A DNA stretch of 64,000 bases from contig DXCW01000111.1 in NCBI GenBank assembly GCA_019115805.1, positions 1 through 64,000 on the forward strand. The letters are read 5' to 3'. Shown here piece after piece: positions 39,899 through 44,199 of the stretch; position 1 is the stretch's first letter, and the number at the start of each line of letters is the position of its first letter. The position numbers and the translations under genes were made by a program. Under the pieces are notes generated by a model. It was given only the letters and a program-made list of their open reading frames with translations. It was not told the DNA's origin and made no database searches. The DNA is from Candidatus Sphingobacterium stercorigallinarum. Lineage in GTDB: Bacteria; Bacteroidota; Bacteroidia; Sphingobacteriales; Sphingobacteriaceae.

Positions 39899-39928
39899 TT
39901 CACCGAATGTTTTCGGTCATTCACCGAA
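39899..39928 (+). promoter_or_regulatory. 9-bp direct repeat with 12-bp spacer (possible LytTR-regulator site)
   Basis: TTCACCGAA occurs exactly at 39899-39907 and 39920-39928, a 21-bp period. Paired 9-bp direct repeats with a 12- or 13-bp spacer are what LytTR-domain regulators such as AgrA bind. The site lies about 50 bp before the -7 box of the operon that encodes a LytTR regulator. Confidence 0.5.
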
Positions 39929-39978
39929 AAAAAACGAACGAAAACCTATTTCTCGTGGCGTGATCGTTATATTCGTTA

Positions 39979-39986
39979 TACTTTTG
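39979..39986 (+). promoter_or_regulatory. putative -7 box TACTTTTG for the LiaF-LytS-LytTR operon
   Basis: TACTTTTG is an exact TAnnTTTG match 24 bp before the ATG at 40011 and lies inside the track's ORF start, arguing against that start. Confidence 0.5.
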
Positions 39987-40010
39987 AATCAAACGCATTT
40001 CGAAAGACAC

Positions 40011-40880
40011 ATGACTATGAATAATCAGACACATCACACTCCTGGGAAACGACCACCAGAAAACAATCGATCATCGACGGTTGTCGGCTTTATCATCCTA
40101 TTTTTAGGTCTTGCCATACTACTCAAGAACCTGGATATGGGCGTACTCATCCCCGGTTGGTTATTTGGATGGGAAATGATTTTGATCGTCATTGGCCTAG
40201 TCATCGGTGTCAATTCCAAATTTAAAAAGAAGTCGGCAATGGTGCTGATCACCGTCGGCGGAATATTTTTATTAAAAGACATCATTGGACTTGAACTTGG
40301 AAGGCTCATTCTTCCTGCTGCGGCAATCGGATTAGGTTTCTATTTAATTAATCGGAATAAATCGAGTCCAGTTCAACCGCCTCCACCGTCAGATGACGAT
40401 AACGATTTTGACTGGGACCGGCGTGTGGAACCTCATCCATCAGGAGGATCATCTACACCTGAAGACCTAAAAGATTCACCTATTGCTCCGTCGGATAGTG
40501 CGGAGCAAAACTCGTATAACAAATCCTTTGGGGCTGATTTCGACGATTACCTCAAAATCGACAATTTCTTTAGCGACACTAAAAAAAACATTTTGAGTAA
40601 AAATTTTCTTGGTGGAAACATCACCTCGATATTTGGGAGCACATCATTGAACTTTCTACAAGCTGACCTCAAACAACCCGTTGTGATCGACACCTTTCAA
40701 CTTTTTGGAAGCACTAAAATCATCGTCCCTACCAACTGGAAAATCTATCCGAATGTATCTAGTATATTTGGGGAGGTCGACGACCGCCGCCCTATTATCA
40801 GTATAGTGACCGATGACCATAAAAAAATATACATCACCGGAACGTCTATTTTCGGTGGCTTGACCATAAAGAACAGTTAA
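40011..40880 (+). CDS. LiaF-like membrane sensor/modulator
   Basis: The protein is 289 residues from ATG 40011 (ATG 40017 is equally possible; the track start 39960 precedes the promoter). The N-terminal third has four hydrophobic segments (about 23-115, DUF5668/LiaF-type). A Pro/acidic linker follows (about 125-195). The C-terminal beta-helix-like LiaF domain has repeated SIFGSTSLNF, QLFGSTKIIVP, SIFGEVDD and SIFGGLTI units. LiaF proteins damp or tune envelope-stress two-component systems. It is followed by a LytS-type kinase (9 bp) and LytTR regulator. Confidence 0.8.
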   Translation: MTMNNQTHHTPGKRPPENNRSSTVVGFIILFLGLAILLKNLDMGVLIPGWLFGWEMILIVIGLVIGVNSKFKKKSAMVLITVGGIFLLKDIIGLELGRLILPAAAIGLGFYLINRNKSSPVQPPPPSDDDNDFDWDRRVEPHPSGGSSTPEDLKDSPIAPSDSAEQNSYNKSFGADFDDYLKIDNFFSDTKKNILSKNFLGGNITSIFGSTSLNFLQADLKQPVVIDTFQLFGSTKIIVPTNWKIYPNVSSIFGEVDDRRPIISIVTDDHKKIYITGTSIFGGLTIKNS

Positions 40881-40889
40881 CCGAGTTGC

Positions 40890-41930
40890 ATGCCCAATCC
40901 AATTAGTGAACAAAACAAAAGATATGTCATCCATGCCTCCTCATGGATTATTTGCGTGCTGTACTTTATCATTATTTACGGCTTGCTAAGATGGTCAAAC
41001 CTAGACAAAACAGTTTCTATATATGACGCATCTATTGGTGCGCTGACCATGACCGGCATCTCATATCTTATTTATAGCACGTTACAATTTTACCTCCCAA
41101 ACAATAGAAATTATTGGAAACTTTTTTCCTTAGCAGCTATTTTCTCGCTAATCAGTGTCGTTATCACCCGATTCTTAATTATTCGCTTCTCACCGGATCA
41201 AGATTTAGTATATCTTAATTTCAGTCTCCCATTCCGATTTGTGATCAACTTTCTTATCATCACCTGTGTCATGATCATCAACGTCTTTTGGAACATCCAG
41301 GAAGAACTCTTGTCGAACAAACGGCGTAAGGAGGAAAGCGAACGAATGGTTCGAGATGCTGAACTCTATAATTTACGCCAACAACTTCAACCCCATTTTC
41401 TTTTTAACAGTTTAAACTCGATCATTGCTTTGATTGGAAGCAAGCCGCAAGAGGCTAGAAACATGGTTTTTCAATTATCTGATTTCCTAAGAGGCACGAT
41501 GCGAAAAGATGAAAAACAGTTCACCTCTGTAGAAGAAGAAATTAATCATTTAAGCTTATATTTGGATATTGAAAAAGTTAGATTCGGCCATCGTTTACAC
41601 ACCGAGTTTATCCTAGCGGATGAAGCCCTTGCCGCCCATATTCCCGTTATGATTTTACAACCCTTGGTAGAAAACGCGATTAAATTCGGTCTATATAATG
41701 TGACCGACGAAGTCAAAATTACAATAACTTTAAAATTAGAAAACAACACATTAGAAGTCACGATACGCAATCCTTTTGACTCGGAACATCCAACCGAAAC
41801 CAAAGGCACCGGATTCGGACTAACCAGCATACAACGACGGATGTACCTGCTATTTAGCCGAACGGATCTTTTGGAAACAAGAATTGAGGGCGACACGTTT
41901 ATTTCTACTCTTAGCATACCACAGTTATGA
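40890..41930 (+). CDS. LytS/YehU-type sensor histidine kinase
   Basis: The protein is 346 residues. Four membrane segments (about 18-35, 48-66, 76-98, 115-133) with no large periplasmic domain precede a coiled linker. A His_kinase domain has His169 in RQQLQPHFLFNSLNSI, then a HATPase domain with LQPLVENAIKFGLYN (N box) and GTGFGLTSIQRRM (G box). This is the intramembrane-sensing type. The stop overlaps the response-regulator start by the shared ATGA, so the two are translationally coupled. Confidence 0.92.
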   Translation: MPNPISEQNKRYVIHASSWIICVLYFIIIYGLLRWSNLDKTVSIYDASIGALTMTGISYLIYSTLQFYLPNNRNYWKLFSLAAIFSLISVVITRFLIIRFSPDQDLVYLNFSLPFRFVINFLIITCVMIINVFWNIQEELLSNKRRKEESERMVRDAELYNLRQQLQPHFLFNSLNSIIALIGSKPQEARNMVFQLSDFLRGTMRKDEKQFTSVEEEINHLSLYLDIEKVRFGHRLHTEFILADEALAAHIPVMILQPLVENAIKFGLYNVTDEVKITITLKLENNTLEVTIRNPFDSEHPTETKGTGFGLTSIQRRMYLLFSRTDLLETRIEGDTFISTLSIPQL

Positions 41931-42667
41931 TCAAAACCATCCTAATTGACGACGAGCCATTAGCGCGGAGCATGGTTCACGAATACCTGAACGAATTTCC
42001 AGAATTTCAAGTTGTTGCGGAATGTAACGATGGCTTTGAGGGAGTCAAAGCTATTCATGAACATCAACCCGATCTGATTTTCCTTGATGTGCAAATGCCA
42101 AAGCTAACCGGGTTTGAAATGCTAGAGCTATTAGATAGTTACCCGCACGTTATTTTCACCACCGCGTTTGACGAATACGCGTTGAAGGCATTTGAGAAGA
42201 ATGCAATCGATTACTTGCTCAAACCGATCAGGCCTGATCGGTTTAAAAAAGCTATAGATAAATTCAGAAGTTCTTTTCAACAAAACCGTCCATCACAAGC
42301 AGACAATGCCGGTATGGCAGAAGCAATAGAACCCGAATCTCTGGAACGCGTTGTTGTCAAGACGGGGAATCAGATTAAAATCATTCCAGTCCAGCAAATT
42401 AACTATTTAGAGGCCTACGATGATTACGTAAAAATCCACACTAGCGATGGTATGTTCCTTAAAAACAAAACGATGGCATCCTTTGAGAGACAGCTTGATC
42501 CAAAACACTTTGTGCGTGTCCATCGGTCTTTTATCGTTAAAGTTGACCAATTGGAAAAAATTGAGCCGATGGAAAAAGACAGTTACATCGCTACGTTACA
42601 TCATGGCGAAAAAGTAAACATCAGCAAATCAGGATACAGCCGATTAAAAAAGGTAATTGGCATGTAA
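41927..42667 (+). CDS. LytTR-type response regulator
   Basis: The protein is 246 residues. The receiver domain (1-120) has acidic residues Asp8 and Asp9, the phospho-acceptor Asp54 in LIFLDVQMPKL and the conserved Lys in YLLKPIRP. A LytTR DNA-binding domain (about 138-243, VVVKTGNQIKIIPVQQINYLEAYDDYVKI) follows. It should be phosphorylated by the coupled LytS-type kinase and may control its own operon through the upstream direct repeat. Confidence 0.94.
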   Translation: MIKTILIDDEPLARSMVHEYLNEFPEFQVVAECNDGFEGVKAIHEHQPDLIFLDVQMPKLTGFEMLELLDSYPHVIFTTAFDEYALKAFEKNAIDYLLKPIRPDRFKKAIDKFRSSFQQNRPSQADNAGMAEAIEPESLERVVVKTGNQIKIIPVQQINYLEAYDDYVKIHTSDGMFLKNKTMASFERQLDPKHFVRVHRSFIVKVDQLEKIEPMEKDSYIATLHHGEKVNISKSGYSRLKKVIGM

Positions 42668-42724: not shown

Positions 42725-42732
42725 TATTTTTG
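42725..42732 (+). promoter_or_regulatory. putative -7 box TATTTTTG for the beta-lactamase-fold gene
   Basis: TATTTTTG ends 3 bp before the ATG at 42736, so the message would be leaderless or nearly so. The track's TTG start lies inside the box. Confidence 0.45.
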
Positions 42733-42735
42733 GGC

Positions 42736-44199
42736 ATGAGATTACCTGGAGTCACCTTATTCTTCGCTTTTTTATTTAGCAGTATCCAGTTGGTATGCGC
42801 TCAAACTGAAGCAGAAAGACAGAATCGTGCAGTATTCAATCGAATTGAGTATTTCTTCAACACCCAACAGACCGATTCTATTTATCAATTGGCGAATGAA
42901 AAATTCAAAGAACAAATAAGCCAAACAAAACTATCGAATATACTCGATCAACTTTACTCGCTCGGTAAAATACAGTCCGCCGACCGAACAGGGTTCACAG
43001 AGGGCATAGCCACTTATACGCTAGATTTCGAGACCACCACATTAGACCTTCAACTTGGTGTTGACACGAATTTCCGTTATGGCTTATTTCTTATTCAGCC
43101 GCATCAAAGCACAGAACAGGATGAGCTTCCAGTAGAGCATGAACCTGCCATGAAAGACTCGGTCATATCGAACGTGGACACCAAAAGCGAACTTGATCTC
43201 TACGTGGATTCTGTTGCGCGTCATTACGCGAGAAACGAGAGGGTACACTCCTTATCCGTCGCCATTATTCATCAAAACAAAATAAACACGTTTTTTTATG
43301 GCGAAACGCAACCGGGGAACAATCAGCTACCGGATGCCAATACAAGCTATGAAATCGGATCAATTACAAAAACATTTACCGCCACCTTGCTCGCTGATTT
43401 AGTTAACAAAGGGAGACTACGTTTAGACGAAAGTATCGCTACGTATCTTCCTGACTCGCTCGCGCAGAACCCTAATATTAAAGCCATAACCTTTCAAATG
43501 TTAGCCAATCACACCTCGGGGCTTCCCAGATTAGCAAGCAATTGGAATACCGGAGCAGATTTTCAGAAAGACAACCCCTATGCACATTATACACGAGAGG
43601 ATTTGTTTACTTATCTCGTCCAATTTGAACCCGAGAATGAACCGGGGACTACCTATGAGTATAGCAATTTAGGCTTTGGCTTACTGGGCGAGCTTCTTTC
43701 TATATTGGAAAATAAACCGTATATGCAGCTTATTAGCGAGCATATTTTAACTCCATTGGAAATGACCAATACGACCGATCAACTTCTCGAATCGGAAGAT
43801 AATCTTGCACCGCCGTACGATCAGGATGGGCAGGCAGTCCCCTTTTGGAAATTTCAAGCATTAGCTGGGGCGGGATCACTTTCCTCAACGTTAAACGACT
43901 TACTCCGATATAGTATCGCGCAACTCACCTATCCAGAAACCGATGTTCAAAAGTCGATGCACCTCACCAAGCAATTTACATTCTTTGTCCCCCCTAACAG
44001 CGATATCGGCCTGGGGTGGCATATGACCATGATAGACGGGGTGATTGCCTATTACCATACTGGAGCAACGAGCGGATCAAACTGTTTCATCGGCTTCGTA
44101 CCGGACGAAAAATCGGTAGTTATCCTATTGTCGAACTCCACAGCTGAATTGGATGAAATGGGCTCCATGATGCTTGAACGAGTTTTACGTACCGACTAA
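42736..44199 (+). CDS. serine hydrolase, DUF3887-like domain fused to class C beta-lactamase/PBP fold
   Basis: The protein is 487 residues. A signal peptide (GVTLFFAFLFSSIQLVCAQ) leads into a small N-terminal domain (about 30-122) resembling DUF3887. After a linker comes the beta-lactamase-related domain (about 150-480). Catalytic motifs are all present: S209-ITK-212, Y309-SN and H441-TG. Such proteins are usually esterases or D-amino-acid peptidases rather than antibiotic-degrading enzymes. It is periplasmic. It directly follows the two-component operon but has its own promoter. Confidence 0.88.
   Translation: MRLPGVTLFFAFLFSSIQLVCAQTEAERQNRAVFNRIEYFFNTQQTDSIYQLANEKFKEQISQTKLSNILDQLYSLGKIQSADRTGFTEGIATYTLDFETTTLDLQLGVDTNFRYGLFLIQPHQSTEQDELPVEHEPAMKDSVISNVDTKSELDLYVDSVARHYARNERVHSLSVAIIHQNKINTFFYGETQPGNNQLPDANTSYEIGSITKTFTATLLADLVNKGRLRLDESIATYLPDSLAQNPNIKAITFQMLANHTSGLPRLASNWNTGADFQKDNPYAHYTREDLFTYLVQFEPENEPGTTYEYSNLGFGLLGELLSILENKPYMQLISEHILTPLEMTNTTDQLLESEDNLAPPYDQDGQAVPFWKFQALAGAGSLSSTLNDLLRYSIAQLTYPETDVQKSMHLTKQFTFFVPPNSDIGLGWHMTMIDGVIAYYHTGATSGSNCFIGFVPDEKSVVILLSNSTAELDEMGSMMLERVLRTD

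Follow-up and report, generated by a model that had tools for sequence, protein, structure and literature searches.

The liaF operon and the repeats upstream of it

The window analysed here, a stretch of 64,000 nucleotides from Candidatus Sphingobacterium stercorigallinarum, carries an operon for a LiaF-like membrane protein, a LytS-type sensor kinase, and a response regulator (Table 1). Domain searches agree with the gene assignments of a first-pass annotation of this DNA, although the start of liaF is refined here to the ATG at 40011 or 40017. The membrane protein scores 54.5 bits against LiaF-TM (cut-off 27) and 27.9 bits against LiaF-like_C, which is slightly under the cut-off of 29, and the third gene encodes a LytTR-domain regulator, as had been proposed, in which both Response_reg and LytTR domains are found. 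A gene of the beta-lactamase family (PF00144), which also matches DUF3887, is located at 42730-44199, about 60 bp past the operon, and may or may not be cotranscribed with it.

Sequence searches show that TTCACCGAA occurs twice in front of liaF, on the same strand as the operon, and that the two copies are 21 bp apart from start to start with a 12-bp spacer between them, which is the geometry that the first-pass annotation had described. The -7 box TACTTTTG begins 50 bp past the second copy, again at the distance given there. A single TTCACCGAA 9-mer is unremarkable (0.83 expected), and the pairing is what counts: TTCACCGAA-N12-TTCACCGAA has no other match in the window even when up to three mismatches are allowed, with 0.07 expected on the basis of shuffled sequence, and only one copy of the exact pair is present in the 3.14-Mb genome. 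Although both repeats of the earlier description stand, its listing did not include the third, degenerate half-site AAAACCTAT that we place downstream of them. In addition, an 8-bp perfect inverted repeat, TTTTCGGT-CATTC-ACCGAAAA, lies at about 39911-39931, between the two copies of TTCACCGAA and over the second, and yields an inverted partial half-site.

Table 1. Predicted operator, promoter elements and genes at the liaF-lytS-lytTR locus (window coordinates; offsets are counted from the start of the array).
Feature	Position	Strand	Evidence or remark
LytTR half-site 1, TTCACCGAA, core TTYACCGA	39899..39907	+	T, T, C, C, G and A columns unchanged across 47 orthologs; predicted
LytTR half-site 2, TTCACCGAA	39920..39928	+	Ortholog conservation and spacing test; predicted
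Half-site 3, degenerate, AAAACCTAT	39941..39949	+	RYCTA at 39944-39948, next 21-bp step downstream
Near-invariant T, offset 57	39956..39956	+	97% of sites; putative role
Bacteroidota -7 promoter box TACTTTTG (TAnnTTTG)	39979..39986	+	Offset 80 from array start
Putative transcription start, conserved A, offset 92	39991..39991	+	A in 88% of sites
liaF-like membrane protein	40017..40880	+	LiaF-TM; ATG 40011 alternative start
LytS-type sensor kinase	40890..41930	+	His_kinase PF06580, H box QLQPHFLFN
Response regulator, receiver and LytTR	41927..42667	+	PF00072 and PF04397 well over cut-off; presumed binder of the array

Conservation, spacing and promoter register

When the upstream regions of orthologous operons are compared, both the pair and its exact 21-bp phase are seen to be kept, which supports the autoregulation that the first-pass annotation had predicted from geometry. 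TTYACCGA-N13-TTYACCGA is matched at 15 or 16 of its 16 positions upstream of liaF in 47/47 operons of Sphingobacterium and close relatives, these loci having been retrieved via the regulator and scored over 260 bp. Among the operons of other Sphingobacteriaceae genera in which liaF was located, 36 of 38 have the pair in 21-bp phase with at least 13/16 matches, and it is also present in operons of other Bacteroidota classes. When the spacing is changed to other values between 12 and 33 bp, at most 4 loci have a pair with at least 14/16 matches. The two operons in which the pair was not found both belong to genus g23, which has reduced genomes; the orthologous operon is kept at these loci (L168 and L169), with no recognisable array found, and they possibly have a changed recognition word. 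A divergent DUF3276 gene adjoins the site in 47/47 loci, but we rejected it as the owner of the site because the module faces liaF, judging by its -7 register and by the other targets.

Genome-wide counts give the same picture of a fixed spacing. Together, 94 genomes of the genus contain 308 copies of the exact pair TTYACCGA-N13-TTYACCGA, compared to 2 occurrences of a reversed control, and about 0.008 exact pairs are expected by chance in a 4.5-Mb genome with equal base frequencies. With the spacer left free from 3 to 33 bp in 27 genomes, and with a recurrent 25-mer excluded, the matches listed include at least 88 pairs at N13 and at least 30 over all other spacers combined, none of which has more than 3 and which have about 1 each. 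A 25-bp pair, TTCACCGATACCACAATTTCACCGA (N9), that is present several times per genome in many genomes was rejected because it is 23S rRNA.

The regulon sites discussed below were aligned without gaps, and the third half-site, T57, and the box all lie outside the search pattern. RYCTA occupies offsets 45-49 and continues the 21-bp phase set by ACCGA in half-sites 1 and 2; 47/47 Sphingobacterium operons have it from offset 45 onwards, as do nearly all of the regulon sites whose box is at 80 (C47 100%, T48 92%, A49 96%). The T at 39956 is probably part of the -33 region. Moreover, the Bacteroidota -7 box TAnnTTTG (described by Bayley et al. 2000, as cited in PMC6193735) starts exactly at offset 80 in 79/93 sites, and in the operon set alone it is found at 80 in 39/47 and at 81 in 3 more. 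Three LiaF2 promoters have a box-like element at 59, apparently one 21-bp unit nearer, and the DUF4407 promoter has one at 58. Beyond the Sphingobacteriaceae, half-site 3 is either weak or missing, and the box is often at 59, in several families, as for two-site arrays. With a transcription start close to the conserved A (39991), the half-site centres would fall near -88, -67, and -46, positions suitable for activation. At another locus, L333 (G016:C1:3196515-3196564), three perfect copies of TTTACCGA in 21-bp tandem are present upstream of the gene for an exported protein of about 290 residues; a box at 80 was not found for this triple array.

Regulon members and co-occurrence with the regulator

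Looking for further genomic sites, a check put forward in the first-pass annotation, revealed a set of target genes besides the operon itself, and supports the view that autoregulation would be only part of the role of the array, which would serve a regulon as well. The 93 Sphingobacterium sites, a tally that depends on the regions retrieved and is not an unbiased census, comprise 44 before Lumazine_bd_2 exported proteins (41 with the box at 80), 15 before second LiaF-like proteins (11), 12 before LiaF operons (11), 12 before DUF4342 (12), 7 before CarboxypepD_reg/OMP barrels (3), and one each before Pmp3 (1), DUF4407 (0), and an unassigned short protein (0). In other genera, the module is seen before PspC, PspC-LiaF-TM, toastrack DUF4097, Lumazine_bd_2, and OMP proteins, with the box at 80 in 13 of the 20 retrieved regions, and two DUF2807 genes of one genome (G036) are preceded by the pair, with a RYCTA-like sequence as third site and no exact box. 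Some of the family-wide sites that lack the box may be due to chance. The target set is coherent, including as it does LiaF-like, PspC, toastrack, DUF4342, and Pmp3 proteins.

Members in the genome from which the window is taken are the liaF-lytS-lytTR operon, a LiaF2 gene (C181:3105) whose box at 79 is degenerate, and a Lumazine_bd_2 gene (C16:5528) for which the pair has two mismatches; C68:31555 is a weak further candidate. Other matches with two or three mismatches in this genome mostly lack the promoter box or the third site, and were therefore rejected as chance. At L284:458-1865 (minus-strand coordinates) and in G158 and G137, Lumazine_bd_2 exported proteins are duplicated, each copy having an array and -7 box to itself; this represents a lineage-specific expansion of a regulon gene.

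The site also co-occurs with the regulator. In 151 Sphingobacteriaceae genomes, the exact pair is present in 97/127 with a close regulator ortholog and in 3/24 without one (Fisher p = 4e-9), and the corresponding numbers for 198 genomes of the phylum are 18/42 and 8/156 (p = 1e-8), with a control pattern present in 6/198; these p-values overstate the evidence because related genomes are not independent, and the agreement across families and classes weighs more. In 16 of the 18 phylum genomes, the pair is located 2-2.7 kb upstream of the regulator ortholog, and 20 further ortholog loci have pairs with 13-15/16 matches; five loci at 13-14/16 are ambiguous. Family genomes lacking the ortholog are mostly small, and the targets have been lost there too. 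For G104, which has the pair and no regulator ortholog, the site is the same 29-mer as the operon site of G086; a missing contig is therefore likely, and at least one of the three ortholog-lacking genomes with the pair looks like an assembly gap.

Relationship to known systems and proposed mechanism

Upstream of the promoter, LytTR regulators recognise direct repeats that are about 9 bp long and separated by 11-13 bp (PMC4227749, PMC4847170), and published sites consist of 9-11-nt repeats with 11-13-bp spacers (PMC4847170). The array shares these features with AgrA/YpdB/BtsR-type operators, as it does the presence of a receiver and LytTR regulator beside a LytS-type kinase. As for an AgrA-type autoregulatory operator, the receiver-LytTR gene is in the operon, the repeats are conserved in orthologs, and their position is upstream of the promoter; the array agrees in every testable feature, and is predicted to work like an operator of the AgrA/YpdB type. 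It differs from these operators, however, in having the word TTYACCGA, three half-sites, an exact register with the Bacteroidota -7 box, and putative envelope-stress genes as targets. The nearest published sequences are the LRS-like repeats predicted in Bacteroides, TCCGGTATTCA-11-ACCGGAAATCA before TATCTTTG (PMC6193735), which have an ACCG core although both the repeat and the distance to the box differ here. In LRS systems, too, repeats spaced by 11-13 bp lie immediately before the promoter and serve autoregulation (PMC6193735), and the operon includes a membrane protein with a DUF2154/LiaF-like domain. LRS systems lack a kinase and a receiver, however, whereas the operon here is a complete two-component system (PF06580 kinase and receiver), and we rejected LRS membership on this basis.

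Triple LytTR operators exist for RcoM and CoxC (PMC11347149), with three half-sites at two-turn intervals; the RYCTA third site in 47/47 operons and the three perfect copies at L333 give the same arrangement. RcoM and CoxC are one-component CO sensors of Proteobacteria with unrelated targets, whereas the regulator here is of the two-component type, and CoxC represses whereas activation is proposed here. Likeness to LiaFSR and PSP (PMC11237479) is seen in the LiaF-TM membrane protein of the operon and in the PspC, toastrack, and LiaF-TM proteins among the targets, PspA not being seen among those sampled. This is not LiaFSR in the strict sense, because a His_kinase PF06580 protein and a LytTR regulator are present rather than the LiaS/LiaR (NarL-type) pair. 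Coevolution lines of Flavobacterium johnsoniae with antibiotic exposure acquired mutations in an adjoining LytTR regulator and histidine kinase, FJOH_RS09515/RS09520 (PMC10197871).

Taking together the array, its spacing, its fixed distance to the -7 box, its conservation, the shared targets, and the co-occurrence, we consider it likely that the LytTR regulator binds the three-site array and activates both its own operon and an envelope-stress regulon. The repeat pair would then be the upstream two thirds of an operator whose three half-sites follow one another at 21-bp (two-turn) intervals and whose end is about 30 bp short of the -7 box. In Firmicutes, LiaF inhibits its kinase. Envelope damage, as the presumed signal, would free the LytS-type kinase from LiaF, and the kinase would phosphorylate the LytTR regulator, molecules of which would align on one face of the DNA at -88, -67, and -46 and activate transcription. 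Activation would provide for autoregulation of liaF-lytS-lytTR and for expression of an envelope-protection regulon, and the induced LiaF might close a negative loop.

It seems unlikely that the regulator is instead a repressor that occupies the array and blocks the promoter in the manner of CoxC, which represses via three LytTR repeats overlapping the -35 region (PMC11347149). The third half-site does approach the -33 region, but all three half-sites are upstream of -33 by the putative start, the strict spacing from the -7 box is consistent with polymerase contact, and activation from a site upstream of -35 is the usual mode of LytTR regulators (PMC11347149). Many related response regulators are present in genomes of the genus, and one of these, as a LytTR paralog, or an unrelated factor might bind the array and control the operon from outside; this seems unlikely, however, given that the site stays with the regulator ortholog across classes of the phylum, that the pair was not found at the four other LytTR loci in the genome of the window, and that genomes keeping only paralogs nearly always lack the site. 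We can dismiss a chance repeat, which is refuted by the conservation and the genome counts, and an RNA or stem-loop element, despite the inverted repeat in the window, because TTTTCGGT/ACCGAAAA is not kept in orthologs and was rejected as a functional stem, an Rfam search gave no match, and transcription from the -7 box does not include the array, which precedes it.

Searches of the open literature found neither a LytTR recognition sequence from Bacteroidota that has a defined regulon nor a description of this array motif and its regulon, only LRS-like repeats having been predicted in Bacteroides (PMC6193735). With activation by the LytTR regulator as the preferred reading, the arguments are evenly balanced that LiaF-LytS-LytTR might be the Bacteroidota counterpart of the Lia/Psp envelope-stress responses, using one recognition word and a polymerase-phased three-site array in much of the phylum, and controlling LiaF-like, PspC, toastrack, DUF4342, and exported lumazine-binding-like proteins. 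The motif and promoter register, which are family-wide and partly phylum-wide, provide a ready list of target genes, and regulon membership suggests a plausible role for the DUF4342 and Lumazine_bd_2 exported proteins. The envelope-stress response of Bacteroidota would thereby become directly testable.
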